Of a DNA stretch of 58,632 bases, positions 8,489-42,941 are shown piece after piece. The notes under the pieces were generated by a model that was not told the origin of the DNA, did not search any database, and worked only from the letters and a program-made list of their open reading frames with translations. The position numbers were made by a program, and so were the translations under genes. The DNA is from Patescibacteria group bacterium. Its GTDB lineage: Bacteria; Patescibacteriota; Minisyncoccia; Phycocordibacterales; SBAW01. The stretch covers positions 1 through 58,632 of the forward strand of contig JAIEMM010000005.1 in NCBI GenBank assembly GCA_019752125.1, given 5' to 3'. Positions within the stretch are counted from its first letter, which is position 1, and every line of letters starts with the position of its first letter.

Positions 8489-8513
8489 CTGAGCAAGGTC
8501 GAACCTTGCTCAG
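8489..8513. repeat. Palindromic intergenic repeat CTGAGCAAGGTCGAACCTTGCTCAG
   Basis: Near-perfect palindrome, similar to copies at 13682 and 14102; followed by T-run on plus strand. Confidence 0.75.
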
Positions 8514-8516
8514 TTT

Positions 8517-11195
8517 TTATCTCCCCTTCAACACCCGCTTGAGATATTTACCGGTGTGAGAATTCTTATTGTTTGCCACATCTTCTGGGGTGCCTTTTGC
8601 AATAAGTTTGCCGCCACCAACTCCACCCTCAGGACCAAAGTCCAACAAGTAGTCAGAACTCTTGATGATATCCATATTGTGTTCAATAAGAACGACTGAG
8701 TTCCCCGCCTGCACCAAGCGGTTTAAGATATCGATCAATTTCTGAACATCTTCGTAGTGCAGACCGACTGTTGGCTCATCGAGCAAGTAAATTGTTTTCT
8801 GCAAGTGAGGACGGTAGAGTTCTGCAGAGATTTTTACGCGCTGCGCCTCGCCGCCAGAAAGTGTTGTTGCTGACTGACCAAGGCGCAAATATCCCAAACC
8901 TACTTCGCCAAGCGTTTTAAGGCGATCATGAATTGCAGGGATGTCGTTAAAGAAATCGAGCGCTTCCTCCACCGTCATTTCAAGCACATCGTAGATGCTC
9001 TTCTTTTTATATTTCACTTCGAGCGTCTCTTTCATAAAGCGCTTTCCATCGCAGACATCGCAGGTCACATACACGGTCGGCAAGAATGACATTTCAACGG
9101 CAATTGTGCCGTTACCTTCGCAGGCCTCGCAGCGCCCTCCACCCTTTGCGGTTTGTACGTTAAAGGAGAAGCGATTTGCTTTCCATCCGCGCGCACGCGC
9201 CTCGGTCGTTGAAGCAAACATATCGCGAATAAACGTAAACGCACCTGTGTACGTTGACGGGTTTGAGCGTGGAGTACGGCCAATAGGCGACTGGTCGATC
9301 AAGATTGCACGAGAAAGATTCTCTGCGCCTTCAAAGCTTGCGACATTGAAAAGTTTATTGGTGCGGTAGCGCTTGTCGAAACGCGCACGAAGGTTTTCGT
9401 ATAAGATTTCATAGAGGAAGGTTGATTTGCCTGAGCCAGAAACTCCGGTAACCGTGACGAGTTTGCCAAGCGGAAGTTCTGCTGAAAGATTGTGGATGTT
9501 AAATGCTTTGCCACCTTTGATCTTGATCCACCCTCTGTCTTTTTCGCGGCGTTCATCTGGGACTTCAATTGCCTTTTCACCACGGAGGTATGCGAGCGTT
9601 ACTGAACCGCTGTCGTTTTTCTTTGCAGTAAGAAGTTTTTCAAGTTCGCCCGCAACAACGACGTTGCCGCCGTGCACACCAGCACCTGGGCCGATGTCTA
9701 CCAAGTAGTCGCTGGCATAAATAGTGTCTTCATCGTGTTCAACAACAATGATTGTGTTACCAAGATCACGAAGATCAACAAGAGTTTTAATCAAACGTTC
9801 GTTGTCGCGCTGGTGGAGGCCGATAGTTGGCTCGTCGAGAACGTACAACGCACCTACAAGGCCAGAGCCAAGCTGTGAGGCCAAGCGAATACGCTGCGCT
9901 TCCCCGCCAGAGAGCGTGTTGGCACGACGGTCGAGCGTTAGGTAATCCAACCCAACGTTCAACATAAACTTTAGGCGTGCTGTGATTTCTTTAATAATTG
10001 TCTTAGAGATTTCTTGATCTTTTTTCGACAGTTCTAGTTCTTCAAAGAATGTATACGCATCCTGAATAGACATGTCTGTGAGCTGAACAATATTTTTTGC
10101 GTCTTTCGGAATGAAAACTTCTGTTTCTGAACCGTCCCCTCGCTGACCTGCAGGTGAAGAAGCAGAAGTTTTCGTGGAGTTTTTATACAAAAATACATTG
10201 AGTGCTTCTGGGCGCAGACGCATACCGTGACAGACAGGGCACTTCTCATCGCTAAAGAAATGCTTTGTTCCCAAACCATTACATGCTGGGCAGGCGCCGT
10301 AGGGAGAGTTGAACGAGAAGAGACGAGGTTCGATTTCAGGGAAAGAGAATCCATCGTATGGACACATAAACTTTGCAGAGATAAGGCGAGATTTCACTGC
10401 CTCTTCTCCTGTGCCTGGCTCTTCTACCTGGACCAAGCCATCAGTTTCCTCCAATGCGCGTTCTACAGCTTCAGAAAGGCGTTCAAGAGCCGCTGCTTTC
10501 GAGCGTGTAAACTCCGGTACGAGAATTTCATCAACAAGCACAGAGATATCGTGCTTCTTATGTTTTGCGAGAATAATTTGTTCGCGAAGGCTCTTAAGCT
10601 CTCCATCAACTTTTACGCGCTCATACCCTTTACCGAGTAGATCGTACAAAAGTTGGTAGTACTCGCCTTTCCTACCTACGACAACAGGCGCATAGATTCG
10701 TACGACATCTTCGTTGATATTCACGCCCATAACGGTGCGAGTTTTCTTCGGCGTAGATTTTGTAACACTGTCTACAATGCTGTGAATAATTTCTTCGTTA
10801 GAAAGTTTTTTGATTTCGCGGCCGCAGGTAAGGCAGTGTGGTTTGCCGACACGTGCAAAGAGAATACGCTGGTAGTCGTAAATTTCTGTAATAGTCGCAA
10901 CCGTTGAGCGCGGGTTGTTTGAACGGCTCTTCTGGTCGATAGAGATAGCTGGTGAAAGACCGGTGATCTCCTCAACATCGGGCTTCTGCATCTGGCGCAA
11001 GAATTGGCGTGCGTAGGCAGAAAGAGACTCGATGTAGCGGCGCTGGCCTTCAGCAAAGATGGTGTCGAACGCCAAAGATGACTTGCCGCTGCCCGACAAG
11101 CCCGTAAATACAACCATCTTATTCCGCGGAATACTCAGCGAAATATTCTTGAGGTTGTGCGTCTTTGCGCCTTTTATTGTTATTTTGTCTTCCAT
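8517..11195 (-). CDS. uvrA: Excinuclease ABC subunit A
   Basis: 892 aa; two ABC cassettes (FTGLSGSGKSSLAFDTIFAEGQRRY, GVSGSGKSTFL), zinc CxxC motifs, LSGGEAQR twice. Confidence 0.97.
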   Translation of the reverse strand: MEDKITIKGAKTHNLKNISLSIPRNKMVVFTGLSGSGKSSLAFDTIFAEGQRRYIESLSAYARQFLRQMQKPDVEEITGLSPAISIDQKSRSNNPRSTVATITEIYDYQRILFARVGKPHCLTCGREIKKLSNEEIIHSIVDSVTKSTPKKTRTVMGVNINEDVVRIYAPVVVGRKGEYYQLLYDLLGKGYERVKVDGELKSLREQIILAKHKKHDISVLVDEILVPEFTRSKAAALERLSEAVERALEETDGLVQVEEPGTGEEAVKSRLISAKFMCPYDGFSFPEIEPRLFSFNSPYGACPACNGLGTKHFFSDEKCPVCHGMRLRPEALNVFLYKNSTKTSASSPAGQRGDGSETEVFIPKDAKNIVQLTDMSIQDAYTFFEELELSKKDQEISKTIIKEITARLKFMLNVGLDYLTLDRRANTLSGGEAQRIRLASQLGSGLVGALYVLDEPTIGLHQRDNERLIKTLVDLRDLGNTIIVVEHDEDTIYASDYLVDIGPGAGVHGGNVVVAGELEKLLTAKKNDSGSVTLAYLRGEKAIEVPDERREKDRGWIKIKGGKAFNIHNLSAELPLGKLVTVTGVSGSGKSTFLYEILYENLRARFDKRYRTNKLFNVASFEGAENLSRAILIDQSPIGRTPRSNPSTYTGAFTFIRDMFASTTEARARGWKANRFSFNVQTAKGGGRCEACEGNGTIAVEMSFLPTVYVTCDVCDGKRFMKETLEVKYKKKSIYDVLEMTVEEALDFFNDIPAIHDRLKTLGEVGLGYLRLGQSATTLSGGEAQRVKISAELYRPHLQKTIYLLDEPTVGLHYEDVQKLIDILNRLVQAGNSVVLIEHNMDIIKSSDYLLDFGPEGGVGGGKLIAKGTPEDVANNKNSHTGKYLKRVLKGR
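10113..10173. repeat. Palindromic in-frame element (family E) in uvrA
   Basis: Arms GAAAACTTCTG / CAGAAGTTTTC (11 bp perfect), 39 nt between arms; core GAACCGTCCCCTCGCTGACCTGCAGGTGA shares 24/29 bases with the uvrB copy. Confidence 0.85.
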
Positions 11196-11197
11196 AG

Positions 11198-13378
11198 TTA
11201 CTTTTTATTCGATAGCTTTGCTTTCGGCTGCTTCCCCATCAATACCGTAATTTCGTCTCGAAGGATAGCAGCAGTTTCGAAGTCGAGTTCCTTAACAGCA
11301 TCTGCCATCTGCTTCTTCTTGTCGGCAATAAAGCGGCGAGGATTCTTTTTGTATAAGTCTCTGTCTATGTCGAGCAGCACACCAACCGCCTTGCCGTGTT
11401 CTGTACGTAGGTGGTCGGTAATATCGTTAATCGCTTTTTTGATAGTAATCGGTGTAATGCCGTGTTTTTTGTTGTATGCAAGCTGTATCTCACGGCGGCG
11501 CTTTGTTTCACTCATCGCTTTCTCAAGCGAGCCTGTCATCTGGTCGGCATACATAATGACGCGACCGTGTACGTTGCGGGCTGCACGACCGATAGTTTGA
11601 ATAAGCGATGTTTCAGAACGTAGGAAGCCTTCTTTGTCAGCATCCAAGATGGCAACAAGCTCAACTTCTGGGAGGTCGAGGCCTTCGCGGAGAAGGTTCA
11701 CGCCTACAAGCACATCGTACAAACCCTTTCTGAAATCGGTCAAAATAGTAATACGGTCCAGGGTCAGCACTTCACTGTGGATATAGGCTGCTTTAAATTT
11801 TCTGTCTTTCAAATATTCAGAAAGATCTTCGGCCATCTTTTTAGTAAGCGTTGTAACAAGTACACGACCTCCGTGTTTAATTACTTTCTCTGCTTCGTCT
11901 AAGAAATCTTGGACTTGGCCTTTCTGAGACGCTTCATCCGCACCACGCCCTCCTCGCTCGCTCGGGCCGCTATCGCTTCCACTCGCTCGGATTGCGGGTG
12001 CGGATTTCGCTCCCGTAACAGGTCTAACAATAATTTCTGGGTCTATAAGACCAGTTGGGCGAATGATTTGCTCAACAATATTCTTTCCTGATTTTTCTTT
12101 TTCGTATGCGCCAGGTGTTGCAGATGTATATATTCTCTGGCCAATGTCCCCTTCAAATTCTTCGAACTGAAGCGGACGGTTATCTATTGCAGATGGAAGG
12201 CGGAAGCCGAATTCAATCAAGTTTTCTTTGCGTGCGCGGTCGCCGGCATACATGCCGCCAATCTGCGACACCGTAACATGGCTTTCGTCGATGATAGTTA
12301 GGAAGTCTGGAGTTCCATCTGCCTTGTGTGGGAAGTAGTCAAGCAATGTATATGGCGGCTCACCTGGTTTGCGACCACCAAAATGACGAGAATAGTTTTC
12401 AATGCCTGGACACACGCCGATCTCGCGGATAAGTGCGATGTCGTGGTTCGTGCGGCGCTTCAAGCGTTCTGCCTCAAGTACTTTTCCAGAGCGCTCAAGT
12501 ATTGCGAGACGTTCTTTAAGTTCGTGTTTGATATCTGCGATAGCGCGATTGCGTTCATCTTTTGGAGTAACGTAGTGCTTTGCTGGAAAGAGGAAGAGCG
12601 AAGAAAAAGCATTTTTTGAAGCGTCCCCTTGATGTCCTGCAGCTGAAAAAGATGCTTTTTCGGAGCGACTTATTGCATCAATAATCCTAACTTTAGAAAT
12701 AATTTCTCCTTCAAATTCAACGCGGTACAAGATGCGTTCACCTGTCGGCATAATCTCAACACTGTTTCCAAGCGCGCGGAATTTGCCAGGCATCAAGTCT
12801 GCTGTCGTGCGTTCAAAATATATGGCGATAAGTTCGCGGATAAGATCTGCGCGATTCTTTTTCATCCCCGGCGCAAGTTCCAAGTGAACTTTGCGATATT
12901 CTTCTGGGCTCCCTAGAGAATAGATGCAGGAAACAGAGGCAACGATAATCACATCGTCGCGCGTAAGTAATGCCTGGGTAGACGCATGGCGGAGACGGTC
13001 AATTTCTTCATTGATCTGCGCTTCTTTTTCTATATATGTATCTGAATGCGGAACGTAGGCTTCTGGTTGATAGTAGTCGTAGTAAGACACAAAATAGTGG
13101 ACCGCATTGTCTGGGAAAAATTCTCTGTACTCTTGTGCGAGCTGTGCAGCGAGAGTTTTGTTATGAGCGATGACAAGAGTCGGTTTGCCGATTTGCTGAA
13201 TGACATTTGCAGCAGTATAGGTTTTACCCGAACCAGTCACGCCCAAAAGCGTCTGGTGTTTTTCACCTTTTTTAATGCCTTTCACCAACGCTTCAATAGC
13301 CTTAGGCTGATCGCCGGCTGGTTTGTATTCAGATTTGAGTTTGAATTTCCCCATAAAGGACTTGACAGTATAGCACAA
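11198..13378 (-). CDS. uvrB: Excinuclease ABC subunit B
   Basis: 726 aa; LLGVTGSGKTYTAANVI, YYDYYQPEAYVP, LREGLDLPEVELVAILDADKEGFLRS. Likely start at internal MGKFKLKSEYKPAGDQPKAIEAL. Confidence 0.97.
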   Translation of the reverse strand: MCYTVKSFMGKFKLKSEYKPAGDQPKAIEALVKGIKKGEKHQTLLGVTGSGKTYTAANVIQQIGKPTLVIAHNKTLAAQLAQEYREFFPDNAVHYFVSYYDYYQPEAYVPHSDTYIEKEAQINEEIDRLRHASTQALLTRDDVIIVASVSCIYSLGSPEEYRKVHLELAPGMKKNRADLIRELIAIYFERTTADLMPGKFRALGNSVEIMPTGERILYRVEFEGEIISKVRIIDAISRSEKASFSAAGHQGDASKNAFSSLFLFPAKHYVTPKDERNRAIADIKHELKERLAILERSGKVLEAERLKRRTNHDIALIREIGVCPGIENYSRHFGGRKPGEPPYTLLDYFPHKADGTPDFLTIIDESHVTVSQIGGMYAGDRARKENLIEFGFRLPSAIDNRPLQFEEFEGDIGQRIYTSATPGAYEKEKSGKNIVEQIIRPTGLIDPEIIVRPVTGAKSAPAIRASGSDSGPSERGGRGADEASQKGQVQDFLDEAEKVIKHGGRVLVTTLTKKMAEDLSEYLKDRKFKAAYIHSEVLTLDRITILTDFRKGLYDVLVGVNLLREGLDLPEVELVAILDADKEGFLRSETSLIQTIGRAARNVHGRVIMYADQMTGSLEKAMSETKRRREIQLAYNKKHGITPITIKKAINDITDHLRTEHGKAVGVLLDIDRDLYKKNPRRFIADKKKQMADAVKELDFETAAILRDEITVLMGKQPKAKLSNKK
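11937..12006. repeat. In-frame inverted-repeat element (family F) in uvrB
   Basis: Arms ATCCGCACC (11937-11945) / GGTGCGGAT (11998-12006) around a CTCGCTCGCTCGG-rich core; adds residues between conserved RPxTG and KGQVxDxL. Confidence 0.7.
12603..12661. repeat. Palindromic in-frame element (family E) in uvrB
   Basis: Arms GAAAAAGCAT / ATGCTTTTTC (10 bp perfect), again 39 nt between arms; core GAAGCGTCCCCTTGATGTCCTGCAGCTGA. Confidence 0.85.
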
Positions 13379-13680: not shown

Positions 13681-13681
13681 T

Positions 13682-13702
13682 GAGCAAGGTCCGACCTTGT
13701 CC
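13682..13702. repeat. Palindromic intergenic repeat GAGCAAGGTCCGACCTTGTCC
   Basis: Shares CAAGGTC(C)GACCTTG palindrome with 14102 and (variant) 8489. Confidence 0.75.
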
Positions 13703-13742
13703 AGCTAAAGAAAAACTGCTCCACAAAATTATGTGAAAGCAG

Positions 13743-14101: not shown

Positions 14102-14120
14102 GACAAGGTCCGACCTTGTC
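14102..14120. repeat. Palindromic intergenic repeat GACAAGGTCCGACCTTGTC
   Basis: Palindrome apart from central position; third copy of the family. Confidence 0.75.
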
Positions 14121-14123
14121 CAA

Positions 14124-14181
14124 CAAAAAAAAGAAAAGCCATCGACCAGGATGTGAGTGAACACATCTGATCGATGGCTTT
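14124..14181 (-). terminator. Rho-independent terminator
   Basis: Minus strand AAAGCCATCGA ... TCGATGGCTTTTCTTTTTTT with inner GATGTG/CACATC stem. Confidence 0.8.
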
Positions 14182-14673: not shown

Positions 14674-15966
14674 TCAATTACCTTTATATGTTTCTAAAAA
14701 CGAATTTTTAAACTGCTCAAATTGCCCGTTCAAAATTGATTCGCGGATGTCACTGCAGAGCTTGGTGAGGAAATAGATATTGTGCATGCTGGCAAGAATA
14801 GGCCCCAATATTTCGCGTGTGCGGAAAAGGTGGTGCACATAGGCGCGGGTATGATTCTGGCACGTTGGGCACTGACACCCTTCATCTATTGGAGAGTAGT
14901 CATATTGATGCTCAGCATTTGGAATTTGAATCTTCCCGCGCTTTGTATACAAACCTCCATTTCTTCCATTGCGAGTTGGAGTAACGCAGTCGAACGTATC
15001 AACACCGTGCGCAGCGCCAAGAAGAATATCTTCAGGCTCTCCTACTCCCAAACCATGCACTGACATGCCTTCTGGAAGTTCTGTAAGCATTGCAAGAGCG
15101 GATTGCAGAGAATGGTCGCCGTATTTGCGACTGAATGAACCGCCGAGGCCAAACCCATCAAAACCCATGTTACCGATGGTTCGTGCGCTTTCGCGACGGA
15201 GGTCGTCAAACTGCCCTCCCTGCCCTATACCATAGATACCCTGCTTAGTATTTGCATCGAGGTTCTGTCGATGTGTGCTCAAAGAACGCTTTGCCCACGC
15301 GTGCGTTCTCTCCATCGCTTCTTTTTGTTCCTCATAACTATCGGTAGGTGCGGTGCACTGGTCAAAGGCAAAAAAGATATCTGCACCGAGACGGTGTTGA
15401 ATCTCTACCGAGCGCTCCGGAGTAAAACGATGAAGCGAGCCGTCGAGATGTGAGGTAAAAGAAACTCCCTCGTCATCTACTATCGCAAGTTTTCCATGGC
15501 TAGTTGCAAGATCTTCATCGTATACAGCCGGCGCCGACGAAGAAAGATCTCCATCAAAAGATCCTCGGGGATCCTCGCTCCCTTCGGGAGCTTTCGCCAG
15601 ACCATTTTGCTGTAAATCTTTCTTCTCTGGTGTAAATTTTGAAATCTTTTTCCCAAATCCAGTTCCAAGAGAGAATACTTGGAAGCCGCCGGAGTCTGTC
15701 ATCGTTGGACCGTTCCAGTTCATAAACTTCGCAACACCTCCCCCTTTTTCAACAGCATCGAGTCCTGAAAGATAGAGGTGATACGTGTTTGCGATGAGAG
15801 TTTGAACACCGAGGGATGGAAACTTTGCTGATTCTATACCCTTTATGTCTGCCTTAGTGGCCACAGGCACAAAGGCCGGCGTCAAAATATCGCCACGGGG
15901 TGTATGCAAAACACCCGCCCTTGCGGACGAGTGCTTTGCTTCAATTGTAAGTCGAACTGGAGGCAT
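14674..15966 (-). CDS. tgt: Queuine/preQ1 tRNA-ribosyltransferase
   Basis: 430 aa; LIANTYHLYLSGLD, TMTDSGGFQVFSLG, GLGVGEPEDILLGAAHGVDTFDCVTPTRNGRNGG, CQCPTCQ. Confidence 0.93.
   Translation of the reverse strand: MPPVRLTIEAKHSSARAGVLHTPRGDILTPAFVPVATKADIKGIESAKFPSLGVQTLIANTYHLYLSGLDAVEKGGGVAKFMNWNGPTMTDSGGFQVFSLGTGFGKKISKFTPEKKDLQQNGLAKAPEGSEDPRGSFDGDLSSSAPAVYDEDLATSHGKLAIVDDEGVSFTSHLDGSLHRFTPERSVEIQHRLGADIFFAFDQCTAPTDSYEEQKEAMERTHAWAKRSLSTHRQNLDANTKQGIYGIGQGGQFDDLRRESARTIGNMGFDGFGLGGSFSRKYGDHSLQSALAMLTELPEGMSVHGLGVGEPEDILLGAAHGVDTFDCVTPTRNGRNGGLYTKRGKIQIPNAEHQYDYSPIDEGCQCPTCQNHTRAYVHHLFRTREILGPILASMHNIYFLTKLCSDIRESILNGQFEQFKNSFLETYKGN
15539..15625. repeat. Palindromic in-frame element (family D) in tgt
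   Basis: Outer arms GAAGAAAGAT / ATCTTTCTTC; inner CAAAAGATCCTCGGGGATCCTCGCTCCCTTCGGGAGCTTTCGCCAGACCATTTTG; 87 nt = 29 codons. Confidence 0.85.
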
Positions 15967-19874: not shown

Positions 19875-20040
19875 TTCTGGAAGCCGTTTCGTCGTACTTT
19901 CACGTACTATGACGGACGGATGGACATGCGGACCTTGTAAGGCACCTCCCAGACCTACTACGTTGTTTGCGAACTGCACGTTCGAAACGGCTTCCAGAAC
20001 TTATCGCGGCCGCGACTCTTTGAGTCCGGCCGTTTTTCTT
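19875..20040 (+). ncRNA. Candidate structured small RNA with 17-bp closing inverted repeat and terminator
   Basis: TTCTGGAAGCCGTTTCG (19875-19891) is the exact reverse complement of CGAAACGGCTTCCAGAA (19983-19999); immediately followed by terminator hairpin CGGCCGCGACT...AGTCCGGCCG + T-run. Confidence 0.5.
20007..20040 (+). terminator. Rho-independent terminator
   Basis: CGGCCGCGACTCTTTGAGTCCGGCCGTTTTTC. Confidence 0.8.
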
Positions 20041-21718: not shown

Positions 21719-22573
21719 ATGAAAGAAACTCGATTGATCATGGGAATGCCCATCACAGTCGAGGTAGCGGAGCAAAAAAGCCCCGAAGCTTTTTGCGCAG
21801 ATGCGATGGAAGAGGTGTTTTCGTATTTTGTTTCAGTAGATGAGCGATTTAGTACTTATAAGGAAACTAGTGAGATTTCAAAAATTAATCAAAGCCTCCA
21901 CGAACAAGCTTCTTTCACAAAAGTCCTCGGGGGTCCTCGGTTTCCTTCGGAAACCTTGCGCCAGACTTTTGCTCAAGAACTTGTTCGCTTTGGTCTTAGC
22001 GAAGATATGCTAGAAGTTCTGGCTTTGGCAGAAAAAACTAAGAAAGAGACAGCTGGCTACTTTGATATTCACCTGCCTGCCCAGGCAGGAAAACCCGATG
22101 GCGGCATTGACCCATCAGGCATTGTAAAAGGCTGGGCAATTAAAAATGCTGCAGAACTTTTGAAAGAAAGAGGTGTAGAAAATTTTTACATAGAAGCGGG
22201 CGGTGATATCCAAACCAGCGGCATGAATGCAGAAGGAAATGAATGGAACGTGGGCATCCGCAACCCCTTCAACAAAAACGAAATAGTCAAAGTCATATAC
22301 CCACGCGGGCGCGGGGTTGCTACATCTGGCAGCTACGAACGCGGGAATCATATCTACAACCCTCTCGCCCCAGAAGAATCTTTACGCGAAGTTGTGAGCA
22401 TCACTGTCATAGGCCCAGACGTACTTGAAGCAGACAGGTTCGCAACCGCTGCATTTGCTATGGGGCAGAAAGGCGTTGAGTTCATTGAAACTTTGGGTGG
22501 TTTCGAGGCATACTCAATAGACAAGAACGGTATAGCGACTATGACTAGTAAGTTCCTGGAATTAACACAATGA
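21719..22573 (+). CDS. apbE: FAD:protein FMN transferase
   Basis: MGMPITVEV, DERFSTYKETSEISKINQ, DPSGIVKGWAI, FYIEAGGDIQTSG, VATSGSYERG. Confidence 0.92.
   Translation: MKETRLIMGMPITVEVAEQKSPEAFCADAMEEVFSYFVSVDERFSTYKETSEISKINQSLHEQASFTKVLGGPRFPSETLRQTFAQELVRFGLSEDMLEVLALAEKTKKETAGYFDIHLPAQAGKPDGGIDPSGIVKGWAIKNAAELLKERGVENFYIEAGGDIQTSGMNAEGNEWNVGIRNPFNKNEIVKVIYPRGRGVATSGSYERGNHIYNPLAPEESLREVVSITVIGPDVLEADRFATAAFAMGQKGVEFIETLGGFEAYSIDKNGIATMTSKFLELTQ
21901..21987. repeat. Palindromic in-frame element (family D) in apbE
   Basis: Arms CGAACAAG / CTTGTTCG and CAAAAGTC / GACTTTTG; core CTCGGGGGTCCTCGGTTTCCTTCGGAAACCTTGCGCCA homologous to tgt copy. Confidence 0.85.
22072..22089. repeat. Palindrome CCTGCCTGCCCAGGCAGG in apbE
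   Basis: Contributes LPAQAG in DIHLPAQAGKPDGGIDPSGIVKG; related sequence at 53286. Confidence 0.7.
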
Positions 22574-42544: not shown

Positions 42545-42588
42545 GTCTAATGGCAAGACAGCGGCCCTTGAAGCCGTTAATTGGGGTT
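42545..42588 (+). pseudogene. Truncated tRNA-Gln copy (D-arm through start of T-arm, no acceptor stem)
   Basis: GTCTAATGGCAAGACAGCGGCCCTTGAAGCCGTTAATTGGGGTT versus real tRNA GTCTAATGGTAGGACAGCGGCCTTTGAAGCCGTTAATTGGGGTT. Confidence 0.85.
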
Positions 42589-42590
42589 AG

Positions 42591-42619
42591 AAAAAGAAAA
42601 AGCGGCACTAAGGCCGCTA
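42591..42619 (-). terminator. Rho-independent terminator
   Basis: Minus strand AGCGGCCTTAGTGCCGCTTTTTCTTTTT. Confidence 0.8.
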
Positions 42620-42870: not shown

Positions 42871-42941
42871 TGCCCGATCGTCTAATGGTAGGACAGCGGC
42901 CTTTGAAGCCGTTAATTGGGGTTCGAATCCCTGTCGGGCAG
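42871..42941 (+). tRNA. tRNA-Gln(TTG)
   Basis: TGCCCGA...TCGGGCA acceptor; anticodon stem-loop GCGGC CTTTGAA GCCGT; T-loop GTTCGAATCC. Confidence 0.93.

Follow-up and report, generated by a model that had tools for sequence, protein, structure and literature searches.

A family of short palindromic elements with copy-specific arms within protein-coding genes of Patescibacteria

Two related palindromes in apbE and tgt

The window analyzed here is the whole 58,632-nt stretch of contig JAIEMM010000005.1 (assembly GCA_019752125.1), from a 702-kb patescibacterial genome. Two of its genes, apbE and tgt, lie on opposite strands and each contain an 87-nt palindrome (Table 1). The preliminary description of the apbE element, including its sequence, coordinates, arms, nested hairpin and reading frame, was reproduced when the region was read again from the sequence, with a minor correction concerning the span of the tgt palindrome, as given in Table 1. 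The two elements also have the same orientation on the DNA, as had been reported: the hairpin of the tgt copy, GCTCCCTTCGGGAGC (positions 15577–15591), is on the same DNA strand as the apbE element. Folding of the apbE copy is 4.7 standard deviations below that of dinucleotide shuffles, none of which (0 of 200) was as low. A covariance model built from 66 members, with both window copies in its training set, matched the two at 80 and 53.6 bits. The apbE and tgt elements are members of one family.

Table 1 Features of the window related to the palindromic elements
Feature	Position	Strand	Evidence or remark
apbE (FAD:protein FMN transferase), host gene	21719..22573	+	ORF/translation, NCBIfam ApbE match, PDB ApbE relatives; frame open through element
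Whole palindromic element in apbE, 87 nt	21901..21987	+ (sense to gene)	Fold z -4.7; family-model matches
Outer arm left, copy-specific, CGAACAAG	21901..21908	+	
Inner arm left, TTCTTTCACAAAAGTC	21910..21925	+	Inverted repeat
Conserved core TCCTCGGGGGTCCTCG, type NN=GG	21924..21939	+	Common to family
Variable covarying inner hairpin GGTTTCC-TTC-GGAAACC	21939..21955	+	
Conserved 3′ core GCCAGAC	21960..21966	+	Common to family
Inner arm right, GACTTTTGCTCAAGAA	21964..21979	+	Inverted repeat
Outer arm right, copy-specific, CTTGTTCG	21980..21987	+	
tgt (tRNA-guanine transglycosylase), host gene	14674..15966	-	
Second copy, antisense to tgt, type NN=GA, arms GAAGAAAGAT/ATCTTTCTTC	15539..15625	+	
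Other family of same design (copy-specific arms), core CTGCAGGACATCAAGGGGACG	12603..12661	-	In 782-aa ORF
Second copy of that other family, core CTGCAGGTCAGCGAGGGGACG	10113..10173	-	In 895-aa ORF

The family has a constant architecture, in which a conserved core, TCCTCGGGNNTCCTCG followed by a variable hairpin and GCCAGAC, is enclosed by AAAAG/CTTTT and then by the outer arms. From the outside inward, the element consists of outer arms of about 8–12 bp (some much longer), an internal loop, the AAAAGTC/GACTTTT stem, an asymmetric loop in which conserved CTCGGGNNTCCTCG faces GCCA, and a hairpin whose length varies. The NN positions of the core and their apparent partner are exchanged together, as TC/GA or GA/TC. 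Elements are about 60–125 nt long and carry no gene of their own.

Other repeats were noted in the same window. The two genes containing the second in-gene palindrome family look like uvrA and uvrB, judging by sequence; its copies have private arms (GAAAACTTCTG.., GAAAAAGCATC..) around a shared core, CTGCAGGWCANCRAGGGGACG, and the second copy is bordered by CTCC/G..C/TTCG (slashes mark the borders). Three related short intergenic palindromes are built on AAGGTC..GACCTTG (8490–8513, 13681–13713 and 14104–14132), and a perfect 17-bp inverted repeat, TTCTGGAAGCCGTTTCG, surrounds 91 nt at 19875–19999. In addition, 48 nt of a tRNA gene recur with 92% identity upstream of the intact tRNA (42545–42592 and 42880–42927), apparently as a degraded tRNA copy.

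Extent and taxonomic distribution of the family

A 21-nt core string occurs three times without mismatch in the 702-kb genome, and its reversed control not at all. Looser sequence searches combined with the covariance model identified seven family copies in this genome, so that the family is not limited to the two loci at which it was initially noticed. Besides apbE and tgt, these copies reside in genes for an HTH-type protein (C1), a methyltransferase (C11) and a peptide deformylase (C8), and two (C3 and C4) are apparently located outside genes. Of 35 genomes of the genus, six contain the pattern TCCTCGGGNNTCCTCG, in 16 copies altogether, and the reversed control gave no match. The covariance model matched 31 of the 397 genomes examined in the order and, at the genus level, 10 of the 13 sampled; across the phylum, it matched only 7 of 380 genomes, six of which belong to the same order. 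In total, 103 distinct copies were read from the original genome and its relatives.

A pattern scan of 85,462 species yielded matches almost only in Patescibacteria (Adler-, Kaiser-, Nomura- and Zambryskibacteria), including Adlerbacteria RIFOXYC1_FULL_48_26, and none in Rickettsiales. Matches in Granulicella, Geodermatophilaceae, Streptomyces and a deltaproteobacterium were rejected, given that they have no matching arms and their number is close to the chance expectation; the short pattern with two mismatches allowed returned mostly noise. The viral contigs searched contained no match to the element. The hosts of the element are tiny Patescibacteria related to Candidatus Adlerbacteria, and essential genes are among those that contain it.

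Copies within genes occupy all six phases

The majority of the copies, 63 of 103, are located inside open reading frames; a frame was counted if it spanned 150 codons or more and extended for 20 or more on each side of the element. Tabulation of frame and strand showed that 41 of these are in sense and 22 in antisense orientation and that all six phases are used (15, 19 and 7 copies in the three sense phases; 11, 7 and 4 in the antisense ones). The palindromes are accordingly carried in frame by conserved genes, which they do not destroy. The 63 copies fall into 33 host-gene clusters, 13 of which were hit more than once, and in nine of these 13 both orientations are represented, in one case by two inserts in a single gene. 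The most frequently occupied hosts are polA (8 inserts), tgt (6), tsaD (5), ileS (4) and recG (3); these, together with ksgA, ligA, the gene for RNase R, argS, lepA, uvrA and others, are among the confirmed hosts, with identity confirmed for 18 of the 20 proteins tested. One metagenome-assembled genome (G265) contains two polA-like ORFs (L083 and L194) with different insert phases, perhaps owing to a mixed bin.

Among 12 ApbE relatives from the genus, 11 have no insert and the twelfth carries a different insert. The AlphaFold prediction for ApbE is good overall (mean pLDDT of 86) but weak over the insert, with block means of 66, 52 and 62. From the open frames, the host protein would be expected to include the insert peptide, and the element accounts for the odd insertion peptides KVLGSP, NGLAE..ENRGPF, KSSGLL and GDPRTF in predicted proteins of Patescibacteria.

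Several of the occupied loops, namely those in tgt (before DEDLATSHGK), recG, apbE and the methyltransferase gene, also take unrelated inserts in sister species, indicating that they are permissive sites for several families. The recG gene of the original genome (G000:C2:54745-54861, L234) carries an insert of another family, SGMQGG.TAPYVGEFLAENSPRSGK, at the loop where its nearest relative, G002, has an apbE-type element, and this other family recurs in several other places of the same genome. Three more insert peptides, GGAPQGDGPRTEQ, LQGDIPRPSAESF and KGRDERDPNSLLQ, recur in the same protein loops of sister species (L118, L215, L216 and L233; L144 and L221; L148 and L158).

The preliminary description had proposed selection both for nucleic acid structure and for open reading frames in the two orientations. 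With respect to frames, use in both orientations is evident, but the signal of selection is weak: the cores of non-genic copies have 4.8 of six frames open, compared to 3.9 in shuffles. This modest excess suggests that the element is inherently rather innocuous for coding sequence, and the remaining openness follows from the survival of in-frame insertions.

Outer arms change in pairs and differ between copies

The covariation noted for the nested hairpin of the two window copies holds throughout the family. In an alignment of 66 matches, pairing extends to 92.3% of cells and double changes to 27 of the 32 pairs; the covariation score is 0.550, whereas shuffles gave 0.132 and slid partners no more than 0.104. 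Because this alignment had been fitted to the model, arm complementarity was also evaluated independently of it: the median is 13.0 within a copy and 2.0 between copies, and a further measurement gave 12.5 and 5.0, respectively. These results bear out the structural part of the earlier proposal, namely that some force preserves nucleic acid structure.

The outer arms are complementary within a copy and mostly different between copies. Three copies in the original genome have their central 42 nt in common. Among 52 same-genome pairs of copies with cores at least 90% identical, pooled from the original genome and G002, left-arm identity declines from 0.93 beside the core to 0.35 at 20–25 nt and to background beyond, reaching 0.27 by 25–30 nt. 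The 8-bp outer stems of the apbE and C11 copies differ at several positions, yet each is fully paired, and insertions at a single site of RseP in two species (L084 and L174) have compensated changes in otherwise matched arms. It is this combination that is unusual: cores are common within a genome, and arms are copy-specific and, inside genes, change in pairs.

A probable mobile origin

We consider it likely that the element is a short, non-autonomous mobile DNA palindrome that inserts in frame and is translated through, in the manner of the Rickettsia palindromic elements (RPE). The dispersal of the family, the insertion of an entire palindrome in tsaD, the use of all phases and the covariation are direct observations; movement is the reading that we derive from them. 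Under such a mechanism, the element would insert in either orientation at permissive loops or linkers of protein genes, or between genes; insertions whose length leaves the frame intact would survive, with the host gene translated straight through them. The hairpin or cruciform presumably acts as DNA and could be the substrate of a transposition enzyme. Alternatively, one arm may template the rewriting of the other during replication (quasipalindrome correction), and such arm-to-arm correction would keep the arms complementary while they drift apart between copies. A core common to the copies of a genome would be due to a single source from which they spread recently, or to conversion among them.

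More tentatively, and with less than an even chance in our estimation, these could be mobile palindromes that rewrite their own ends: the conserved core would move or be copied, and each outer arm would be made anew or continually corrected from its partner in the DNA, so that the arms of every copy stay private but matched. The occurrence of unrelated cores with the same design, both in the second family of the window (Table 1) and at the loops of sister species, suggests one insertion machinery with interchangeable cores.

A different history, in which the insertions are ancient and rarely move, their cores being homogenized within each genome by gene conversion and their arms remaining locus-specific, appears somewhat unlikely. 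It would fit the observation that core similarity tracks the genome (0.79 within a genome, compared to 0.63 for the same gene in other genomes and 0.64 for unrelated copies), that arms from the same gene are somewhat more similar (0.55–0.57) than those of unrelated copies (0.49), and that the RseP arms are common to G147 and G265, with the G265 core being of its own genome's type. However, arms from the same genome (0.59) are as alike as those from the same gene, most of the same-gene pairs may represent independent insertions, and the sites in tgt, apbE, recG and the methyltransferase gene are not shared between the original genome and its nearest relative, G002, which implies fast turnover.

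Insertion borders and the search for a mover

In tsaD, four genomes carry an insertion about as long as the entire palindrome or longer, indicating that the arms came with the element. Derivation of the outer arms from the target, with one arm native and the other its inverted copy, was therefore rejected for tsaD; such target-derived arms may still apply at tgt, where the estimated insertion is shorter (72–75 nt for the 87-nt palindrome). An insertion shared by the tsaD genes of G031 and G032 has preserved its palindrome almost unchanged, and the surrounding gene differs at many sites. The G031 copy (L291) contains a nested perfect 20-nt palindrome, CCTGCCTGCCGGCAGGCAGG, which is absent from the otherwise nearly identical copy of G032.

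The borders tend toward CTYC/GC...GC/TYCG (slashes mark the borders), although exact ends cannot be fixed because loop lengths vary between species. Exact 5-mer direct repeats flank the element weakly more often within copies (15%) than between them (7%). No mover and no full-length parent was found among the transposases searched, which were those of the Y1 families.

These features allow the mobile palindrome to be compared with a classical MITE, i.e., a deletion derivative of an insertion sequence that is moved in trans by the cognate transposase and generates target-site duplications, an origin that we regard as unlikely. Inverted arms, both orientations and multiple copies would all be expected of a MITE, as would direct repeats such as CTYCG, a possible target-site duplication that borders 13 of 87 copies on either side and none when examined 60 nt farther out. 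Nevertheless, only 8 of these 13 copies have the same sequence on both sides, no parent emerged from the Y1 search, and the ends of a MITE should be fixed within the family, whereas here arms are mostly unrelated even between copies with near-identical cores.

The pairing probably reflects DNA rather than RNA

The palindromes could in principle be structured RNA (a riboregulator, ribozyme, mini-intron or bypass signal), cis-acting or excised, and maintained by selection on an mRNA hairpin. Unpaired conserved linkers (CTCGGGNNTCCTCG and GCCA) next to strongly covarying stems have the classic look of such RNAs. In a selected RNA helix, G-U is expected to be the commonest departure from pairing; however, among 1355 cells of the outer arms, mismatches comprise 27 G-T, 56 A-C and 62 others, and sense and antisense copies do not differ significantly. 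Read from the opposite strand, the twofold excess of A-C would be an excess of G-U, though a modest one by the standard of typical RNA helices. Since G-T is no commoner than A-C, in either orientation, pairing looks Watson-Crick, as in a DNA palindrome. Moreover, no Rfam family matches the element at gathering score; at permissive thresholds, nothing was obtained for the window copy, and only generic microRNA hairpins for one long-armed copy. Occurrence in both orientations with six open phases would also be needless for an excised or strand-specific RNA, and we judge this explanation improbable. From the mismatches, the pairing is most simply read as a property of DNA, be it a hairpin or cruciform that serves mobility, or template switching by which one arm corrects the other. 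More generally, strong covariation in a repeat need not imply a functional RNA.

Discussion

Among known repeats, an affiliation that we regard as very improbable is a REP-type repeat mobilized by a RAYT (Y1) transposase: RAYT genes co-occur weakly with the element (26 of 31 element-bearing genomes compared to 222 of 366 others) and intragenic REPs have been described, including in polA and uvrA (PMC3733652), but the GTAG and CGTC end tags are at background level (8 and 8 of 87 copies; background of 7 and 9), none of the 37 Y1 transposase loci examined has a copy nearby, and the copy-rich genome G202, with at least eight near-identical copies, has no Y1 gene. There is nonetheless a likeness to the GTAG- and CGTC-tagged REPs, which are palindromes found within the DNA repair genes uvrA, uvrB and polA, the CGTC type being, like the element described here, without a dedicated transposase (PMC3733652). 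The patescibacterial element, in contrast, is longer, has neither tag, and possesses a nested three-part structure with a conserved core.

Bacterial MITEs such as ERIC, Correia/NEMIS and RUP are likewise small, non-autonomous, inverted-repeat elements, some of which form in-frame fusions, but they have family-fixed terminal repeats and target-site duplications (PMC10969869, PMC2229807), whereas the arms of the patescibacterial element are copy-specific. Inverted repeats in the coding sequences of nematomorph mitochondria are possibly maintained by arm-to-arm conversion; however, they consist of conserved codons that belong to the gene itself, and the patescibacterial palindrome is a foreign insert with a repeated core (PMC6649704).

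The closest parallel is provided by the RPEs, which are described as palindromes of about 100 nt located in frame in conserved genes (Ogata et al. 2000, 2002; PMC3767692, PMC10969869, PMC2229807). RPEs are said, on the basis of earlier work, to lose repeat identity over time (PMC6649704), unlike the patescibacterial arms, which are copy-specific and kept complementary. Like RPEs and the Wolbachia WPEs, the patescibacterial elements are short palindromes lying in frame within conserved genes; the bacteria concerned have small genomes and depend on hosts, several families use the same hot spots, and no transposase is known. They differ from RPEs in sequence and phylum, and in the use of both orientations and six phases within one family. 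The NCBIfam library includes RPE models, and no NCBIfam model matched the five insert peptides at E-values of up to 10. By the sequence and tag comparisons, the element appears to be a member of neither the RPE, the REP nor any Rfam family. The open-licence literature searched contained work on RPEs, REPs and MITEs and no report of such elements for Patescibacteria, and we know of no description of them in this phylum. Most earlier descriptions of proteins carrying palindromic insertions in frame come, to our knowledge, from Rickettsia and Wolbachia, and no mechanism is known for them. In Patescibacteria, a second and unrelated lineage of bacteria that are reduced and depend on hosts, several families occur in both orientations and at common protein loops, which makes the mechanism of such insertions and their effects on essential enzymes testable by comparison.
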